Assembly: GCF_016213215.1 (NCBI RefSeq) | Contig: NZ_JACRAW010000088.1 | Coordinates: 1 to 64,000 of the forward strand | DNA length: 64,000 nucleotides | Direction: 5' to 3' | Source: Bradyrhizobium sp. | GTDB taxonomy: Bacteria > Pseudomonadota > Alphaproteobacteria > Rhizobiales > Xanthobacteraceae | In this document: piece by piece, positions 7,940 to 22,657 of the stretch | Numbering within the stretch: position 1 is the first letter of the stretch | How the letters are laid out: the number at the start of each line of letters is the position of its first letter | Position numbers and translations under genes: made by a program | Notes under the pieces: generated by a model | What the model saw: only the letters and a program-made list of their open reading frames with translations | Database searches by the model: none | Told to the model about the DNA's origin: nothing

Positions 7940-9535
7940 TCACCCCTTGTTGTTGAGATCGAGCAGCCCGCGCGCCTCGAGTTCGTCGCGGACCATGCGC
8001 TTGGGGATCTTGCCGTAGCCCGACTTCGGCAGCGCCTCCCAGAAGAAGAAGCGCTTGGGCATCTTGTAGCGCGGCACCTTGGGCGCGAGGAACGCAGCCA
8101 TCTCGGCTTCGCTCACCGGCTTTTCACCCTCGCGCGGAACGCACACGGCAACGCCGACCTCGCCCCAGGTCGGATCGGGCACGCCGAGCACGGCGACCTC
8201 GCCTACGGCCGGATGCGTCAAAATCTTCTCCTCGATCTCGCGCGGATAGATGTTGGAGCCGCCGGAGATGTACATGTCGGAGGCGCGGCCGGTAATGTAG
8301 ACGAAGCCCTCCTCGTCGACATGGCCGAGATCGCCGGTGCGGAACCAGCCGTTGCGGAACGCCTTCGCATTGGCCTCGGGGTTATTGAAATAGCCTGCGA
8401 AAACCGCCGGGCCGATCACGCAGATCTCGCCGGCCTGGTGCGGCTTGAGCTCGTTGCCGTCGTCGTCCTGGATCGAGACCTGCATGCCGGTGCGCTCGAA
8501 GCCGCAGGTGCCGATCCGCGCCTGCGGGCCGTCGTCGATGTCATGCAGCGCCGCCGGAAACACGGTGATGTTGCCGGTGACCTCGCCGAGGCCGAAATAC
8601 TGCACCAGCACCTTGCCGAGCTTCCTCAAGGCGGTCTTCTGGTCCTCGCGATACATCGGCGCGCCGGCGTAGATGACGTAGCGCAGCGAGGAATGATCGT
8701 ATTTCTCGACCGCGGGATGCTCGACCATCATCTTCAGGATCGTCGGCACGGTGAAGAGATTGCTGACGCGATGGGTCTCGATGAGGCGGAAGGCTTCGTT
8801 GATGTCGAACTTCTCGGTCGGCAGCAGCACCGTGCGCGCGCCGCGCGCCGTCTGCATCAATTGATGCACGCCGGCGCCATGCGACAGCGGCGCCACGACC
8901 AGCGAATCGTCCTGCTCGGTCGTGCCCGGCGTGAGGTCGGCAAGATGGTTGGTGACCACGAAGGTCATCTGGCCGTGAGTCAGCACGGCGGCCTTGGAAC
9001 GGCCCGTCGTGCCCGAGGTGAAGAAGAACCAGCACGGATCGTCGTACTCGACCGCGGCGTTCTCGACCGTGGCGCCGGCCTGCGAAGCGATCGCTTCCGC
9101 CACCGACTTCTCGCCGAACGAACCGGCCTCGCCGATGCTCCAGATGAATTCAGGTCCTGTAACGCCCGCGGCGTGGTCGGGAAAATCGCCGTGACAGAGG
9201 AAGGCCTTGGCGCCCGACGCCTGCGCAAGATAGGCGACCTCGTCGGGCATCAGGCGGAAATTGGTCGGCACCCACACCGCCCCGAGGCGGAAGGTCGCGA
9301 ACATCGAGAAGAACATCTCGTCGCCATTCTTGGAATGGACGAGAATGCGGTCGCCCCTGGTGATCCCGCGTTTGGACAGCGCCGCCGCCAGCGCCGAGAC
9401 CGACGCGTCGATCTCGCGCCAGGTCCAGGATCGCTCGCCCCACACGAAGCCGATCCGGTCGCCGTGGCGGCGGGCGTTCTGGGTCAGCATGTAGGCGAGG
9501 TTGGCGACGCGGCGCGACATCCGCAATGGCTGCAT
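7940..9535 (-). CDS. Acyl-CoA synthetase (AMP-forming, ANL superfamily)
   Basis: 531 residues that activate a carboxylic acid through an acyl-adenylate to its CoA thioester. All core motifs are present: the P-loop FFTSGTTGRSKAAVLTH (A3), YFGLGEVTGN (A5), GWFRTGDLG (A7), GRASDMYISGGSNIYPREIE (A8) and the C-terminal catalytic lysine region PKSGYGKIPKR (A10). The start ATG 9535 (MQPLRMSRRVANL) has GAGGAAG upstream; MSRR at 9520 is an alternative. The acid substrate cannot be read from sequence; the overall form resembles medium- or long-chain fatty-acid CoA ligases. First gene of a two-gene unit with the PPC protein. Confidence 0.92.
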   Translation of the reverse strand: MQPLRMSRRVANLAYMLTQNARRHGDRIGFVWGERSWTWREIDASVSALAAALSKRGITRGDRILVHSKNGDEMFFSMFATFRLGAVWVPTNFRLMPDEVAYLAQASGAKAFLCHGDFPDHAAGVTGPEFIWSIGEAGSFGEKSVAEAIASQAGATVENAAVEYDDPCWFFFTSGTTGRSKAAVLTHGQMTFVVTNHLADLTPGTTEQDDSLVVAPLSHGAGVHQLMQTARGARTVLLPTEKFDINEAFRLIETHRVSNLFTVPTILKMMVEHPAVEKYDHSSLRYVIYAGAPMYREDQKTALRKLGKVLVQYFGLGEVTGNITVFPAALHDIDDGPQARIGTCGFERTGMQVSIQDDDGNELKPHQAGEICVIGPAVFAGYFNNPEANAKAFRNGWFRTGDLGHVDEEGFVYITGRASDMYISGGSNIYPREIEEKILTHPAVGEVAVLGVPDPTWGEVGVAVCVPREGEKPVSEAEMAAFLAPKVPRYKMPKRFFFWEALPKSGYGKIPKRMVRDELEARGLLDLNNKG

Positions 9536-14669: not shown

Positions 14670-16103
14670 ATGACAGGTAACCAATCCCCTTCGGAAGCAG
14701 TCCACGTCATCGGTGCTGGCTTGGCCGGTTCCGAAGCCGCCTGGCAGGTCGCGAGAGCAGGCGTGCCCGTGATCCTGCATGAAATGCGGCCGCGGCGGAT
14801 GACCGAGGCGCACCGGACGGATGGGCTCGCGGAACTCGTGTGCTCCAATTCCTTCCGCTCCGACGATGCCGCCAACAACGCCGTCGGGCTGCTCCATGCC
14901 GAGATGCGCCGGCTGGGCTCGCTGATCATGCGCGCGGCGGATGCCAATCAGGTGCCCGCGGGCGGCGCCCTGGCGGTCGATCGCGAAGGCTTCTCCGCCG
15001 CCGTCACCCGGGCACTCAATGACCACCCCCTCATCGAGATGCAGCGGGAAGAAGTCGCCACCCTGCCGCCGGCGGACTGGCGTAACGTGATCATCGCCAC
15101 CGGCCCCCTCACCTCGGCGTCGCTGGCGCATGCCATCCGCCAGTTGACGGCCGAGGACGCCCTCGCCTTCTTCGACGCGATCGCCCCGATAGTGCATCGG
15201 GACTCGATCGACATGTCGGTCGCCTGGTTTCAGTCCCGCTACGACAAGATCGGTCCCGGCGGCACCGGCGCCGATTACATCAATTGCCCGCTGACCCAAG
15301 AGCAGTACGACGCCTTCGTGGCTTCGCTCATCGCGGGCGAGAAGACCGAATTCAAGGAGTGGGAAGCGAGCACCCCATATTTCGACGGTTGCCTGCCGAT
15401 CGAGGTGATGGCCGCCCGTGGTCATGAAACGCTGCGCCACGGCCCGATGAAACCCGTCGGGCTGACCAATCCGCATGATCCTGCTACCAAGCCCTACGCC
15501 ATCGTGCAGCTGCGCCAGGACAATAAGCTCGGCACGCTCTACAACATGGTCGGCTTCCAGACCAAGCTGAAGTACGGCGAGCAGCAACGCATTTTCCGAA
15601 CCATCCCCGGGCTCGAGAACGCCGAGTTCGCGCGGCTCGGCGGGCTGCATCGCAACACCTTCCTCGATTCGCCAAAGCTGCTCGATGCCCAGTTGCGGCT
15701 GCGCGCAGAGCCGCGGTTGCGCTTTGCCGGCCAGATGACCGGCTGCGAGGGCTATGTCGAATCCGCCAGCGTCGGGCTGATTGCCGGCCTCTACGCCGCA
15801 GCCGATGCTCGTGGCGAGACGCTGGCCAGCCCGCCGCCGACAACCGCGCTCGGTTCGCTGCTCGGCCATATCACCGGCGGCCATATCGAGACCATCGAGC
15901 CCGGCACGCGTTCCTTTCAGCCCATGAACATCAATTTCGGGCTGTTCCCGCCGCTGGAGCGCGCCCCGACCAAGAAACCCGACGGCACGCGCCTGCGCGG
16001 CAACGAGAAGACGATCGCGAAGCGGCAGGCGATCAGCGCCCGCGCCCTGGCTGATCTCGACCGATGGATCGCCGACAATCTGCGCATCGCGGCGGCGGCG
16101 TGA
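14670..16103 (+). CDS. trmFO: Folate/FAD-dependent tRNA (uracil-54-C5)-methyltransferase TrmFO
   Basis: 477 residues. TrmFO makes ribothymidine at position 54 of the tRNA T-loop using methylenetetrahydrofolate and FADH2. The N-terminal dinucleotide-binding motif is [18 protein letters not shown], followed by the strongly conserved [32 protein letters not shown] and VDREGFS. The C-terminal half has [26 protein letters not shown] and [10 protein letters not shown], both diagnostic. Length is normal for the family. The next gene starts 7 bases after its stop, so the two are cotranscribed. Confidence 0.97.
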
Positions 16104-16110
16104 GCATCTG

Positions 16111-17214
16111 ATGAGCCTGCCCAGGAAAGACACCGAAGTGCTTTCGGCACGCTGGACCGAGGGCGTGCTGCTCAAGCGCGACGTTTTCTCGACTGTCGAA
16201 CGCGGCCGCTTCCGCGCCGACGCCGGAGAGGTCGATGCGGTGCTGCGCCGGCTCGACCAGGTGCCGTGGTGGTCGTTCGGACTTGCGCTTCACCTGTTCG
16301 GCCGCGAGCGGCGTGCGCTGACTCTCGCCAAGGGCTTGAGGGTTGGACCGGAATTGTTGTGGGCCGGGCGCCGCGCGCTGGTCCGCGGGTTCATCGACGG
16401 AGTGGCGCTGCACCTGGCAAAGCCGCATGGCAACGTTGCCTATTTCCGCTCAGCCAAAACGGCCCTGCACAAGCTGCACCGGGCCGGCATCTGCCACAAC
16501 GACCTCGCCAAGGAGCAGAACTGGCTGGTGGGCCGTGACGGCCGCGCCTACGTGACCGATTTCCAGCTGGCGGCCTGCTTCAAGCGTCGCGGCCGCCTGT
16601 TCCGCATCGCCGCCTACGAGGACCTTCGGCACCTGTTGAAGCACAAGCGCACCTATGCGCCGCAGACGCTGACGCCGAAGGAGCGCAAGATTCTCGCGCG
16701 CAAGTCGCTGGCCGCAAGCCTCTGGCTCATGACGGGCAAGAAGGTCTACCGCGCCGTTACCCGAGGCATCTTCAATTTCACCGATCGCGAAGGCGGCGGC
16801 CGCAGGCTGGTCAATGATGCGCCGGTCCTGATCGAGTTGATCCGCAAGAACCCCGCCGTGCGCGATACGGCCATTGTCGCTTTCGCCGACCGGCGCAGCG
16901 GGGTTGGACTCTATGCCTTCGTCGAGGCCGACCAGGCGGCGCTCGAAGGCCAGCTCCGCAATGAATTGGCAGCCGCCAAGGGACCCAGACCGCCGGAACA
17001 CATCCAGGTCGTGCACGCGCTGCCGCGCGATTCCGGCGGCAAGCCACGTACCGAGATCCTGCAATTGGTGGCGATGAACCAGGTCGACCTGATCGAGCCG
17101 ATGATGACGAGCGAGACCGACCGCGCGTTCCTGAAGGACATTCTCGAGCAGCGCAAGAACCTGCGCGACCGCTTCAATTTCGAAGCCGCCGACCTGAAAC
17201 TGCCATCGAGCTGA
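16111..17214 (+). CDS. Kinase-like protein fused to an acyl-CoA-synthetase C-terminal-like domain
   Basis: 367 residues. The first ~215 form a lipopolysaccharide-kinase/RIO-like fold: the catalytic-loop motif is HNDLAKEQNWLV (H129, D131, N136) and the metal-binding motif is TDFQLA (D150, in place of DFG). The glycine-rich loop is not obvious. Residues ~260-335 (TAIVAFADRRSGVGLYAFVEAD ... PEHIQVVHALPRDSGGKPRTEILQLV) match the C-terminal lid of AMP-forming synthetases, including the position of the A10 lysine (K311). No adenylation core is present. It directly follows trmFO. Members are usually annotated as serine/threonine protein kinase; the substrate is unknown. Confidence 0.75.
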   Translation: MSLPRKDTEVLSARWTEGVLLKRDVFSTVERGRFRADAGEVDAVLRRLDQVPWWSFGLALHLFGRERRALTLAKGLRVGPELLWAGRRALVRGFIDGVALHLAKPHGNVAYFRSAKTALHKLHRAGICHNDLAKEQNWLVGRDGRAYVTDFQLAACFKRRGRLFRIAAYEDLRHLLKHKRTYAPQTLTPKERKILARKSLAASLWLMTGKKVYRAVTRGIFNFTDREGGGRRLVNDAPVLIELIRKNPAVRDTAIVAFADRRSGVGLYAFVEADQAALEGQLRNELAAAKGPRPPEHIQVVHALPRDSGGKPRTEILQLVAMNQVDLIEPMMTSETDRAFLKDILEQRKNLRDRFNFEAADLKLPSS

Positions 17215-17257: not shown

Positions 17258-18526
17258 CTACGTGCAGCGCGCACTCAGGCCCGACGCGGCAAGTCTAGCC
17301 ATGACGGCGGCCAGGTGAGCGCTATCGCGCGTTTCGATCACGAGCTGCAGCAGGGTCGCCTTGGCTGGCAGGTCGGAAAATGTCCGCTGATGAGAGACCT
17401 CGATGATGTTGGCTCCGGCCTCGGCGAGCAGCGCCGCGACCACCGCCAACTGACCCGGCCTGTCGACGATATCGATCGCAAGCTGCGTCAGGCGCCCCTC
17501 GCGCGCCAGCTCGCGGGTGAGGACGGAGGCGATCAGTCGCGTGTCGATGTTTCCTCCGGTCAGCACCAGTCCGACCTTTCGGCCGGAAAAACTTCCCGAA
17601 TTCGCCAGGAACGCCGCAAGGCCGGCGGCGCCTGCGCCTTCAACCACCGTCTTTTCGATCGAGATCAGCGTCGCGACCGCCCGTTCAAGCTCGGCTTCCG
17701 TCACGAGAACGATGTCGTCAATCAACCTGCGGACGAGGCCTGTGGCAATTTTCCCCGGCGACTTGACCGCGATACCCTCCGCGAGCGTGTCGCCACGCAT
17801 GGGCAGATCGGTACCTTTGATGGCGTTGTACATCGACGGGTAAAGCCTGGCCTGCACTCCGATGATACGCAGTTCAGACTGCAGAGACCGGCCTGCTATG
17901 GCCATGCCGGAAATCAGCCCACCGCCCCCGATCGGCACGACGAGCGTATCCAGTTCGGGGACGGCCTCGAGCATTTCCAGCGCAACCGTGCCCTGTCCCG
18001 CGATGATCAGCGGATCGTCATAGGGGTGGACGAAGATCTGCCCGTGCGCCCGGCCATGGTTCTGCGCAAATTCCCCGGCCTCCTCGAGGGTCGCGCCCGT
18101 TACGATCACCTCCGCGCCGTGGCGCCTGGTGTTTTCGATCTTCACCATCGGCGTGCCGATGGGCATGACAATGGTCGCGGGTATGCCGAGCCGCCTGGCG
18201 TGATAGGCGACGCCCTGAGCGTGATTTCCCGCCGACATCGCAATGACGCCGCGGCGCCGTTCGTCGGGTGACAACGCATTGAGTCGATTCAAGGCGCCCC
18301 GCTCCTTGAAGGAGGAGGTGAATTGAAGGTTCTCAAACTTGAGCCAAACGTCGCAACCGCAGATCTCGCTGAGCGTCCTGCTATGATGACAAGGCGTCGC
18401 GACGATCGAGCCCCGGATGGTCTCAGCCGCGGCGCGCAGGTCAGTCATCGCGACCGGCAAACCGGTTGGATCGAATTCCAGCCGGCGCTGGCTTGCCCGC
18501 GAGTTGTTTTCAATTGGATCCGGCAT
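17258..18526 (-). CDS. Threonine ammonia-lyase with ACT domain
   Basis: A PLP enzyme of fold type II that converts threonine to 2-oxobutyrate and ammonia, feeding isoleucine synthesis or threonine breakdown. The Schiff-base lysine is K74 in FTSSFKERGALN; SAGNHAQGVAYHA binds the substrate carboxylate and VVPIGGGGLISG the PLP phosphate. From about residue 335 a C-terminal ACT-type regulatory domain is visible (AIDIVDRPGQLAVVAALLAEAGANIIEVSHQR). The start MPDPIENN at 18526 has AGGTGAAG upstream; MTDLRAAAE at 18448 would fit the shortest homologues. ilvA/tdcB family; I do not assign a symbol. Confidence 0.9.
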   Translation of the reverse strand: MPDPIENNSRASQRRLEFDPTGLPVAMTDLRAAAETIRGSIVATPCHHSRTLSEICGCDVWLKFENLQFTSSFKERGALNRLNALSPDERRRGVIAMSAGNHAQGVAYHARRLGIPATIVMPIGTPMVKIENTRRHGAEVIVTGATLEEAGEFAQNHGRAHGQIFVHPYDDPLIIAGQGTVALEMLEAVPELDTLVVPIGGGGLISGMAIAGRSLQSELRIIGVQARLYPSMYNAIKGTDLPMRGDTLAEGIAVKSPGKIATGLVRRLIDDIVLVTEAELERAVATLISIEKTVVEGAGAAGLAAFLANSGSFSGRKVGLVLTGGNIDTRLIASVLTRELAREGRLTQLAIDIVDRPGQLAVVAALLAEAGANIIEVSHQRTFSDLPAKATLLQLVIETRDSAHLAAVMARLAASGLSARCT

Positions 18527-18637
18527 ATCTGCTTCACCTATCCGAGCGATCCGGCCGTCTCGCGCTCGCAAATCAGCCGGTCAGGTTCAGACCGGTCCAT
18601 TGCTGCTTCCATTCTCGCATGGCGGGCGGCAATGCCG

Positions 18638-19504
18638 CTAGCGGGAAGAAAACTCACGCGATCGCGACGCCCGCCACAGCGTCCACAACGTGCGCAGCCG
18701 AGAGGTGGGCTGCGGCACAAAGGGATCATTGTCCGCGCGCCACAGCCGCCTTAGGTCGCGGTGCACCATTGCAAGCGGCAGGAACACCTTGCGCGTCTCG
18801 GGCGGCACGCCGGCAAGAAGCGAAAATGCGGTTTTCAGATGCTGCTGCGCCTCACCGAGCAGTTGATCCAGTGCCGCGCGCAGCCTCGGCGTCTGCCTGC
18901 CGGCGAAGACCTCTTCCATGCCGCTGCCATGGAGTTCGAGCAGTTGCTGCGGCACGAGCAGCTGACGGCGCGAAGCATCGCGCGGCAGATTCGCGATGAC
19001 CTGCACCATCCCCTGCGCCAGTCCTGCATGCCGGGCGAGATGATCGCCGGCTTCCGATGGCGGACCGGCAATCCCCGCCGCCAGTCCGAACAGAGCCGAG
19101 AAGGTCTCGGTGATATACCCCTCTAACGCCGCCATGGTCGGCATCGGATCGTTGTAGAGGTCGAACTGGTGTTCCTCGATCAGGCGCGACAGCGGCGCGA
19201 GCGGCAAGCCGAAGTCGCGGATCGCACGCAACAGTTCCGCCGCGACCGGATTGCCCTCGACACCGCCATGGCCATGGCCGGCGAGCATGTCCGTCCACCA
19301 TTGCAGCCGGATTTCGCCGGGCAATGGCTGCGTGACCTGGTCGCGGACGCGCAGGATCTCGACGTTGAAAGCATAGAGCGCCAGCAGCGCGCGGCGTTCG
19401 GGAGCCGGAACAAACAGCGTGGCGGTGTAGCGCACAAAATCGTGGCTGCGCACGAGCTCGGCGCAGAACGCGGCCGCATCGGCGGGCACCTCGCCTGCGC
19501 TCAT
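18638..19504 (-). CDS. Squalene/phytoene-synthase-like protein (NDUFAF6-like)
   Basis: 288 residues of the trans-prenyltransferase head-to-head fold. The first Asp-rich motif of true synthases (DxxxD) is not preserved: the region reads LRVRDQV and IEEHQFDLYND. This matches the non-carotenoid branch that includes the mitochondrial complex I assembly factor NDUFAF6. Its ATG overlaps the stop of the Mth938-like gene by 4 bp (ATGA), so it is translationally coupled at the end of the yajC-secD-secF run. An enzymatic role in terpenoid synthesis is therefore doubtful, and an assembly or membrane role is more likely. Confidence 0.82.
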   Translation of the reverse strand: MSAGEVPADAAAFCAELVRSHDFVRYTATLFVPAPERRALLALYAFNVEILRVRDQVTQPLPGEIRLQWWTDMLAGHGHGGVEGNPVAAELLRAIRDFGLPLAPLSRLIEEHQFDLYNDPMPTMAALEGYITETFSALFGLAAGIAGPPSEAGDHLARHAGLAQGMVQVIANLPRDASRRQLLVPQQLLELHGSGMEEVFAGRQTPRLRAALDQLLGEAQQHLKTAFSLLAGVPPETRKVFLPLAMVHRDLRRLWRADNDPFVPQPTSRLRTLWTLWRASRSREFSSR

Positions 19505-19881
19505 GGCACGGCGATCAGCGCCGCCGCCACGCGACGCCGCTCACCGATCATGATGTTGTAGGTACGGACCGCCGCACCGGTCTGCATGGTATCCAGCGTC
19601 ACTTGGAGCGTCCGGAACGTCTGACGCAACTCCGCCGGAGCCAGCCAGACGCCGGTGCCGGTACCGACCAGCAGCGTGTCGATGCTGTTGGCCGCCGCGA
19701 TCACTTTTTCCAGGGAATATTTGTCGATCTGCTCAGGGCTAGTGATGTCCCAGGCCCAGATCGAGTCCGGCAGGCAGAGCAGCGAGCCGCGATGCGACAT
19801 GCCGGCAAATGCGAAACCGCCCTTTCCGTAGGCGTCGATCGGCGCCGACCTTGGAAAATGCGGAGCGTTGCTCGATGGCAT
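19501..19881 (-). CDS. Mth938-like (DUF498) protein, NDUFAF3-like
   Basis: 126 residues. The core APIDAYGKGGFAFAGMSHRGSLLCLPDSIWAWD followed by VIAAANSIDTLLVGTGTGVWLAPAELRQTF is the Mth938 domain. The human homologue NDUFAF3 helps assemble respiratory complex I. It lies 63 bases downstream of secF and overlaps the NDUFAF6-like gene, a gene order I know from other alphaproteobacteria. A role in inner-membrane complex assembly is an inference from that context. Confidence 0.88.
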   Translation of the reverse strand: MPSSNAPHFPRSAPIDAYGKGGFAFAGMSHRGSLLCLPDSIWAWDITSPEQIDKYSLEKVIAAANSIDTLLVGTGTGVWLAPAELRQTFRTLQVTLDTMQTGAAVRTYNIMIGERRRVAAALIAVP

Positions 19882-19944
19882 GGCTTTGGTCCGAATCTGG
19901 CTCCCTAGCCCCGGCGGGTCGCGGGACCGCTGTTCGAATCCCGC

Positions 19945-20949
19945 CTATTTCTTCACTGGCGTATCCGGAGCCTCGGCGCGGGTGGTACCGACGCCGAGAT
20001 AGATCAGGATCGGTGCTGCGATGAAGATAGAGGTGTAGGTGCCGACCAGCACCACGCCGAACATCATGACCGCCGTGAAGCTATGGATCGCGTGGCCGCC
20101 GAACAATAGCAACGCCAGCAAGGCCAGCGTCACGGTGACGTGGGTGATGATCGAGCGCGACAATGTCGAATTGATGGATTCGTTCAACAATTGCGGCATC
20201 GGCATCTTCTTGTAACGCCGCAGCATTTCGCGGATACGGTCGTAGATCACGACCGTATCATTGAGCGAGTAGCCAAGGATCGTCAGCAGCGCCGCGATGC
20301 TGGTGAGGTCGAAATCGACCTGGCTGATCGACATGAAACCGACCGTGAGCACGATGTCGTGCACGTTGGCGATCATGGCACCCAGCGCGAACTGCCACTC
20401 GAAGCGGAACCAGAGATAGATCAGGATCCCGAGGATCGCTAGCATCAGGCCCAGCATGCCGTAGGCCAGAAGCTCGCCGGACACGCGCGGACCGACGACC
20501 TCGACGCGGCGATAATCCACCGAATCCCCGAGCGCGCTCCGGACCTTCTGTACCGCTTCCTGCTGGGCCGCATCGCCCCCCGGCTGCTCCGCGACGCGGA
20601 TCAGTACGTCGGCAGGTCCGCCGAACTGCTGCAACTGGACCTCGCCGAGGTTGAGACTGCTCAGGGCCGCCCGCATCCCGGCAATGTCGGCAGTGCCGGA
20701 CTTGGACTTGACCTCCAGCAGCGTGCCCCCCCTGAAGTCGATGCCGAAATTCAGGCCATGGGTGAAAAACAGCGTGATGGCGAAGAGCGACAGGACCGCC
20801 GAGATCGGGAAACTGATGCGGCGGAAGCGCGTGAAGTCGAAATGGGTGTTGTCGGGAACGATGCGCAGGGCCGGCAGCACGCCAAGCGCACTGATGACCG
20901 TCAGGACGGCGATGAGGATACCAAGTCCGATGAGAATGTATTGGGTCAC
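19945..20949 (-). CDS. secF: Protein translocase subunit SecF
   Basis: 334 residues of the RND-type SecDF motor that uses the proton gradient to complete protein export through SecYEG. Six membrane segments are visible. The periplasmic domain begins GLNFGIDFRGGTLLEV, and the conserved helix-4 motif VGFMSISQVDFDLTSIAALLTILGYSLNDTVVIYDRIRE is intact. It initiates at GTG. A hairpin-forming repeat sits in the 109-bp gap after secD. Confidence 0.96.
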   Translation of the reverse strand: MTQYILIGLGILIAVLTVISALGVLPALRIVPDNTHFDFTRFRRISFPISAVLSLFAITLFFTHGLNFGIDFRGGTLLEVKSKSGTADIAGMRAALSSLNLGEVQLQQFGGPADVLIRVAEQPGGDAAQQEAVQKVRSALGDSVDYRRVEVVGPRVSGELLAYGMLGLMLAILGILIYLWFRFEWQFALGAMIANVHDIVLTVGFMSISQVDFDLTSIAALLTILGYSLNDTVVIYDRIREMLRRYKKMPMPQLLNESINSTLSRSIITHVTVTLALLALLLFGGHAIHSFTAVMMFGVVLVGTYTSIFIAAPILIYLGVGTTRAEAPDTPVKK

Positions 20950-21020
20950 GCCGGGACGCTCCGCATTCTCAGCAGTTCAAGTTTGGCATGCTCGGTCATA
21001 TGCGTCGCTTCGTCGTTTGG

Positions 21021-21059
21021 GGGCATGATCGTGTCCGAAACCGGTATCCGATCATGCCC
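21021..21059. repeat. Perfect 11-bp inverted repeat between secD and secF
   Basis: GGGCATGATCG (21021-21031) and CGATCATGCCC (21049-21059) enclose TGTCCGAAACCGGTATC. The form recalls the RIME-like intergenic repeats of rhizobia, and a related sequence is at 53342. The secD stop codon falls at its edge. On the secD transcript it would form a stable hairpin and could affect secF expression. Confidence 0.65.
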
Positions 21060-22657
21060 TAGATCGGCACGCTGCGCGGCCGTTTCCACCGAACCCACCC
21101 GGCCACGATCAGACGAGTCAGCGTGAAGGCGGTGAAAACAGTGGTGATGATGCCGATGCCGAGCGTCACGGCAAAGCCGCGCACCGGACCGGTACCGATG
21201 TAGAACAGCACGGCAGCGGCGATGAACGTCGTGATGTTGGAGTCGAGGATGGTGGCAAGCGCGCGCTTGAAGCCGGCGTCGATCGCCGAAATCGCGTTGC
21301 GCCCGCCGCGCAGCTCCTCGCGGATGCGCTCGTAGATCAGCACGTTGGAGTCCACCGCGATGCCGACCGTGAGCACGATGCCGGCGATGCCGGGCAGCGT
21401 CAGTGTGGCATTGAGCAGCGAAAGCAAGCCGAAGATCATCGCGACGTTGATGGCAACCGCGATGTTGGCGAACACGCCGAACAGCCGGTAGGTCACAAGC
21501 ATGAACACGATGACCATGATCGAGCCGACATAGGCGGCGAGTTCACCCTTTTCGATGGAGTCCTGGCCGAGGCCGGGGCCTACCGTGCGCTCCTCGATGA
21601 CCGTCAGTGGCGCCGGCAGCGCGCCGGCGCGGAGCAGGATCGCGAGGTCGTTGGCCGACTGCACGGTGAAATTGCCGGAGATCTGGCCCTGTCCGCCGGT
21701 GATCGGCTCACGGATGACGGGAGCCGAGATCACCTCGTTGTCGAGCACGATCGCGAAGGGCAGTCCGACATTCTCGGTCGTGGCGGTAGCGAATTTGCGC
21801 GAGCCGGACGAGTTGAATTTGAAGCTAACGATGGGCTCGCTGGTGCGCTGGTCGAATCCTGGCTGCGCATCGGTGAGGTCGCCGCCGGAGACCAGCACCT
21901 GCTTCTTGACCACGTAAGGCACCTTGGGCGCGCTCGCGCTCATCAGCAGTTCGGAATCGGGCGGCACCCTGCCCTGCTGCGCCTGGTCGGGCGGCACCGA
22001 GCTGTCGACCATCCGGAATTCCATCTTCGCGGTCTTGCCAAGCAGCTCTTTCAGCCGCGTTGGGTCCTGTAGACCGGGCACCTGGACCAGGATGCGGTCG
22101 GTCCCCTGGCGCTGGATCACCGGCTCGACCGTGCCGAGCTGGTTGACACGGCGTTCGACGATCTGGATGGACTGTTCGATAGTCTGCCGGACCCGCTCGG
22201 TGATGGCGGCCTGCGGCACCCCCAACCGGATCAGGCCGCCGCCGGCATCGGTGATTTCCAGGCTACGCTGACCGCTGGAGCCGAGCAGCCCGCCCAGCGG
22301 CTGCGACAGGTCGCGAAGTTTGGTGAGCGCGGTGGCCAGATCGGTCTCCTTGACCCGGACTTCGACCGCATCGCCTTTGGCCGACAGGCCGGTGTAGCCG
22401 ATCTTGGCCTCACGCAGGACGCGCCTTGCGTCGTCGCGGACCTGGTCGAGCTTCTCTTTCTTCACATAGTTGGCGTCGACTTCCAGCAGCAGGTAGGAGC
22501 CGCCCTGCAGATCGAGGCCGAGCACGAGGTGGCGCTGCGCCCAAAGCGGCCATTTCTTGACCGTGGCCTCCGGGAAGAAATTCGGGACCGCACACAGGCA
22601 CACGATCAGCGCCGTTAGGATGATACCCAGCGCTTTCCACCGCGTGAAATATAACAT
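21059..22657 (-). CDS. secD: Protein translocase subunit SecD
   Basis: 532 residues, the larger SecDF partner. An N-terminal helix (ALGIILTALIVCLCAVPN) is followed by GLDLQGGSYLLLEV, the family signature, the large periplasmic P1 domain, and the C-terminal five-helix block with GIAGIVLTVGIAVDSNVLIYERIREELRGG. It ends AGWVRWKRPRSVPI. It lies 44 bases downstream of yajC in the usual order yajC-secD-secF. Confidence 0.97.
   Translation of the reverse strand: MLYFTRWKALGIILTALIVCLCAVPNFFPEATVKKWPLWAQRHLVLGLDLQGGSYLLLEVDANYVKKEKLDQVRDDARRVLREAKIGYTGLSAKGDAVEVRVKETDLATALTKLRDLSQPLGGLLGSSGQRSLEITDAGGGLIRLGVPQAAITERVRQTIEQSIQIVERRVNQLGTVEPVIQRQGTDRILVQVPGLQDPTRLKELLGKTAKMEFRMVDSSVPPDQAQQGRVPPDSELLMSASAPKVPYVVKKQVLVSGGDLTDAQPGFDQRTSEPIVSFKFNSSGSRKFATATTENVGLPFAIVLDNEVISAPVIREPITGGQGQISGNFTVQSANDLAILLRAGALPAPLTVIEERTVGPGLGQDSIEKGELAAYVGSIMVIVFMLVTYRLFGVFANIAVAINVAMIFGLLSLLNATLTLPGIAGIVLTVGIAVDSNVLIYERIREELRGGRNAISAIDAGFKRALATILDSNITTFIAAAVLFYIGTGPVRGFAVTLGIGIITTVFTAFTLTRLIVAGWVRWKRPRSVPI

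Follow-up and report, generated by a model that had tools for sequence, protein, structure and literature searches.

A phosphotransferase-like kinase fused to a degenerate acetyl-CoA synthetase lid, encoded beside trmFO in Bradyrhizobium

The locus and its gene family

The window analysed here is a stretch of 64,000 nucleotides from a Bradyrhizobium sp. contig (NZ_JACRAW010000088.1), in which trmFO (14670..16103, + strand) is followed, 7 bp after its stop codon, by the start codon of an open reading frame for a 367-residue fusion protein (16111..17214, +). NCBIfam model NF006620 (PRK09188.1, 'serine/threonine protein kinase') matches this protein end to end (E 7.5e-185), with a score of 614 bits that lies above the curated cutoff of 490 bits. 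Given the whole-length match, the family is already modelled; it is uncharacterised, named by automatic annotation only, and a literature search for PRK09188, PRK12274 or a trmFO-kinase linkage found no paper. The model has the same architecture as the window protein and contributes a name only, and the divergent members L172 and L177 fall under its cutoff. Pfam Pkinase (E 2.2e-4) and AMP-binding_C (E 6e-4) both score slightly under cutoff for the window protein alone, the latter cutoff being passed by other fusion members (best E 1.1e-19). The same protein recurs in over 120 genomes, and the architecture is therefore not a chance reading of the DNA. The motifs quoted in the initial annotation, HNDLAKEQN (residues 129-137), TDFQLA (residues 149-154) and PRDSGGKPRTEIL with K311 (codon 17041-17043), can all be read in the ORF.

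The linkage to trmFO, a tRNA-methylation gene, extends well beyond the window. In 40 of 48 loci that gene immediately precedes the fusion in the same orientation, with a gap of at most 60 bp in 38/48 and overlap in some, which bears out the linkage stated in the initial annotation and resembles an operon-like pair, putatively cotranscribed. In four loci, from two other families, trmFO instead follows the fusion, the two being separated by a single gene of opposite orientation, and in four more the stretch contains no trmFO, two of these (L284 and L288) being short contig stretches. At some loci (L174:7269-8114; also L172, L175, L176 and L295-L297), the opposite strand carries a gene for about 200-280 aa that separates the kinase gene from trmFO or flanks the two. 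It has no Pfam or NCBIfam match and a lipoprotein-like start (CMQQQ), and its product conserves CHGFGC, MDCIDE.TNTTSYL, YPHATAV and VDSW, which could form a Cys-His-Asp site.

Downstream of the fusion, the opposite strand carries a squalene-synthase-like gene, a DUF498 gene, secF and secD in most loci. The corresponding cluster of the window (17258-22657, opposite strand) comprises a threonine-dehydratase-like gene, SQS_PSY (NDUFAF6-like), DUF498 (NDUFAF3-like), secF and secD, all syntenic across the family except the threonine-dehydratase-like gene. In one Bradyrhizobium relative, a gene for a secreted CAP-domain protein directly follows the fusion (L045:7112-7735); it is absent from that place in the window.

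Distribution and origin of the fusion

The phylogenetic spread of the fusion, proposed at the outset as a check, proved broad within the home family and scattered beyond it. The protein is present in 35 of 36 genus-mates searched, the sole absence being a 62%-complete genome, and 33 of the 47 genera sampled from the home family encode it. An order-wide draw recovered it in 6/122 genera (three from the home family, one from a second family and two from a third), and a class-wide draw added one further fusion, in G418, while NF006620 otherwise matched one kinase-only relative, G410, and the lids of regular acetyl-CoA synthetases in that draw. Outside the home family, then, the fusion is sporadic in Alphaproteobacteria. 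A plasmid search for signs of its spread gave no match. An extra N-terminal domain considered for the relative in G737 was rejected, the extension being an Arg-rich reading 5' of the likely start and without a Pfam match.

Sampling the class of G688 turned up only the kinase part, in a few genomes. This NF008910 (PRK12274.1) protein of Gammaproteobacteria-like genomes is about 48% identical to the fusion in the kinase domain and shares K22/R46, HND and DFQ, but it lacks both the lid and the trmFO linkage, stopping at the point where the lid would begin. In a tree of the lids, resting on few columns, all but one of the 50 fusion lids cluster with good support in a single group adjoining acetyl-CoA synthetase (Acs) lids, with L177, the G418 lid, placed just outside at weak support. 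Most likely, an Acs lid was joined to the kinase C-terminus once, in Alphaproteobacteria; the placement of L177 apart from the rest, weakly supported and in so short an alignment, means that it may represent a second origin.

Genomic context also varies across this range. The G418 fusion sits between a PAP2 phosphatase and lpxB/lpxD, with no trmFO nearby, and the kinase-only gene of one genus is divergent from the gene for a DedA-PAP2-LssY protein. These settings hint at envelope lipid-phosphate metabolism.

The kinase domain

Residues 1-230 (16111..16800, +) constitute a kinase domain of the RIO/KdoK/Bud32 cluster. An AlphaFold model built on a 52-sequence alignment (mean pLDDT 90, pTM 0.79; mostly >90 in this domain) was compared by Foldseek, which returned the kinase domains of RIO1, RIO2, LanKC and PknB, those of RIO1 and RIO2 at E of about 1e-8 to 1e-7 and target TM-scores of 0.55-0.62. 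Together with the profile match, these results bear out the LPS-kinase/RIO-like core of the initial annotation as a RIO/KdoK-cluster kinase. The Kdo/LPS kinase family PF06293 does not reach its Pfam cutoff, its only match being at E 0.059 to one kinase-only relative.

Conservation was counted over 50 fusion homologues. Invariant in all of them are L21, K22, D24, F26, G32, R46, E66 and R92 in the N-terminal part, H129-N130-D131, K134, N137 and D150-F151-Q152, and E170, D171, R173, H174, K177 and K179 in the helix after DFQ. A protein-kinase-like fold is thus accompanied by an invariant catalytic Asp and metal Asn in the catalytic loop HNDLAKEQN (16495..16521, +), an invariant Asp in the metal-binding motif DFQ (residues 150-152; 16558..16566, +) and an invariant helix-C Glu, E66 (16306..16308, +). 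The activation segment and APE motif of eukaryotic-type protein kinases (EPKs) are absent: in the model, the next helix starts from residue 162, about 10 residues past DFQ, and is a basic, alpha-F-like helix containing EDLRHLLKHKR (16594..16656, +). Fold, missing activation segment and catalytic and metal motifs are common to the KdoK/WaaP/RIO/Bud32 cluster (Kannan 2007, PMC1821047), from which the window kinase is set apart by a beta-3 Arg, a Gly-loop Lys, a one-residue insert in the catalytic loop and the fused lid.

The NCBIfam name and the tight trmFO linkage (40/48 loci) would suit a true Ser/Thr protein kinase whose target, TrmFO or another operon protein, is recruited by the lid. So would the invariant K134, which aligns, with a one-residue gap, to PKA K168; the EPK catalytic-loop Lys at this position is linked to protein substrates (PMC4702295) and counts against a small-molecule substrate. 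The lack of an EPK activation segment and APE motif argues against such a kinase, and TrmFO is not a general substrate, because the kinase-only gamma relatives adjoin other genes and the G418 fusion has no trmFO nearby. On balance, protein phosphorylation of this kind is rather unlikely.

Apparent exchange of the catalytic lysine

The beta-3 position is not occupied by the usual catalytic Lys. It is R46 (16246..16248, +), an Arg in 50/50 fusions and in the kinase-only members, and an equally invariant Lys, K22 (16174..16176, +), stands where the Gly-rich loop (LKxDxFS) would have its first Gly, both in 50/50 fusions and throughout the kinase-only members of the clade. Within the PRK09188+PRK12274 clade, the combination holds without exception in the sequences read. 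In 21 distinct sequences from more distant relatives, beta-3 is Lys throughout, and none of them except L330 has a Lys aligned to position 22, an alignment-dependent comparison in that many are gapped there. L330 (G1130:C146:5204-5728), a kinase-only relative, has both lysines (ILKDDFFS ... VLKLSD) and is a plausible candidate for an evolutionary intermediate.

This pattern suggests that the catalytic lysine moved, in the manner of WNK, from beta-3 into the Gly-rich loop. The likeness to WNK kinases lies in that apparent shift; the window clade differs in using the first rather than the third Gly position and in retaining a positively charged Arg at beta-3. Choline-kinase-type enzymes combine a beta-3 K-to-R change with Gly-loop and DFG changes in a known active arrangement, and WNK (relocated Lys) shows a charge shift to the Gly-loop that has also been proposed for CAK-chloro (PMC1821047). 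The arrangement in the present clade may, as we read the alignments, be a further route. The apparent exchange is a point unremarked before, and the initial annotation missed it.

Loss of the beta-3 Lys, combined with a dead lid, might instead point to a pseudokinase-lid scaffold, with no catalysis in either half and with nucleotide and/or carrier bound in a regulatory role. The remaining catalytic residues, including the catalytic Asp and both metal ligands, are invariant in 50/50 homologues and K22 is on offer as a replacement lysine, which makes such a scaffold distinctly improbable.

The C-terminal lid

Profile, fold and alignment identify residues 231-345 (16801..17145, +) as a degenerate acetyl-CoA-synthetase lid. 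PF13193 (AMP-binding_C) matches 50/50 C-domains, and a profile search of solved structures places acetyl-CoA synthetases on top (E 2e-11). Modelled alone (pLDDT 86), the lid matches Acs lids in Foldseek with probability 1.0 and query TM-scores up to 0.69. The proposal of a detached ANL C-domain without its adenylation core is sustained by these profile matches and by the separate fold prediction suggested as its check, the fold being specifically that of Acs lids. Fold and sequence core are common to the Acs C-terminal lid (PF13193; PDB 4u5y, 1pg4). The A8 region is absent, and a kinase stands before the lid in place of the adenylation core.

Fusion lids were compared with 39 Acs lids, using numbering from S. 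enterica K609. Lost from the fusions are D517, G524, R526, R606, R612 and R613, and mostly lost are R584 and K609; of these, we take D517 to be the hinge Asp, G524/R526 the A8 Gly/Arg, R584 the CoA-binding Arg and K609 the A10 Lys, all features that distinguish the Acs lid from the fusion lid. The RSGK-RR surroundings of the A10 Lys have disappeared as well, and the positions retained (V542, G558, Y560, Q597, P603, G608, L615 and A619) are structural. Since all adenylation and CoA-handling residues are lost, the lid is expected to catalyse neither adenylation nor acylation; it is derived from acetyl-CoA synthetase and catalytically dead.

The former A10 motif, PRDSGGK (residues 305-311; 17023..17043, +), ends in K311, which the initial annotation took for the A10 lysine. 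Position 311 is K in 33, R in 4 and G in 1 of 38 close relatives, and among the 50 homologues it is K in only 8 (E 13, A 7, S 5), so that by the annotation's own standard it is not a catalytic A10 residue. An orphan adenylation core that might partner the lid was sought among the 55 PF00501 and 44 PF13193 matches of the genome: PF00501 matches checked against PF13193 and paired by eye gave none near the fusion gene, those without PF13193 being placed where a contig ends or in open frames of 446 aa or more. The ANL synthetase encoded about 7 kb off (8009-9484, - strand) is complete, with a lid of its own, and is not an orphan core. Because K311 is unconserved, other Acs residues are lost and no orphan core is nearby, the acylating C-domain raised as a question initially is unlikely.

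A lid that uses K311 to handle an acyl-adenylate, carrier or CoA, or that is acetylated there as in Acs, could draw on the lysine of the window and its close relatives and on the isolated Acs C-domain, which folds and binds acetyltransferase (PDB 4u5y). Against the 8/50 count, the loss of the D517, G524, R526 and R584 positions and of the RSGK-RR surroundings, and the lack of an adenylation core close to the gene, it is very improbable.

Purifying selection holds the lid to a rate of change no higher than that of the kinase (median pairwise dN/dS 0.11 versus 0.14, the pairs not being independent), and across about 45 genera L267, Y268, A269, F270, Q299, P305 and A321 are invariant and E272, R313 and N323 nearly so. 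A frozen gene-fusion remnant, with the lid a neutral, functionless tail, would account for the vanished catalytic residues and is scarcely credible in the face of this constraint. The dead lid is most likely kept for another job, docking or regulation.

A probable phosphotransferase with a non-catalytic lid

The fusion is probably an active ATP-dependent phosphotransferase of the KdoK/RIO/Bud32 cluster, likelier to act on a small anionic molecule, whose Acs-derived lid would be a non-catalytic docking or regulatory module. The fold match and the 50/50 conservation of D131, N137, D150, E66, K22 and R46 support an active kinase. D131 would serve as the base, N137 and D150 would hold Mg2+, with E66 on helix C, and the K22/R46 pair would grip the ATP phosphates in lieu of a beta-3 lysine. 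Because the activation segment is missing and the F helix is very basic, the substrate is predicted to be small and anionic, for example a phosphorylated or lipid-linked sugar, rather than a protein. For Kdo kinases, a sugar-binding role has been proposed for two arginines of the F helix (PMC4702295). In the LPS kinase WaaP, acyl-ACP bound to the C-lobe stabilises the enzyme (PMC6147952), and the fused lid could, by analogy, stabilise or dock in a similar way.

A lipid or sugar substrate draws support from the basic helix after DFQ, from PAP2 and lpxB/lpxD in G418 and from DedA-PAP2-LssY beside the kinase-only form; some neighbourhoods thus point to a lipid or sugar of the envelope sooner than to a protein. 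Against an envelope sugar stand the home-family neighbours (trmFO, the squalene-synthase-like gene, DUF498 and secDF), which are not envelope-sugar genes, and the phosphate-free lipid A of Bradyrhizobium (PMC6102379). A more speculative extension, possible but doubtful, is that a KdoK/RIO-cluster lineage moved its lysine via a both-Lys intermediate, independently of WNK, and that one branch then took up the dead Acs lid as an acyl/CoA or acyl-carrier sensor or docking module, coupling the kinase to acyl metabolism.

The apparent exchange between beta-3 Lys and Gly-loop Lys could be tested as a bacterial counterpart of the WNK case, a candidate intermediate being still extant. The lid is a case of an ANL domain retained under strong selection after the loss of all adenylation chemistry and of its core, in a fusion conserved with trmFO across most of the family that includes Bradyrhizobium.
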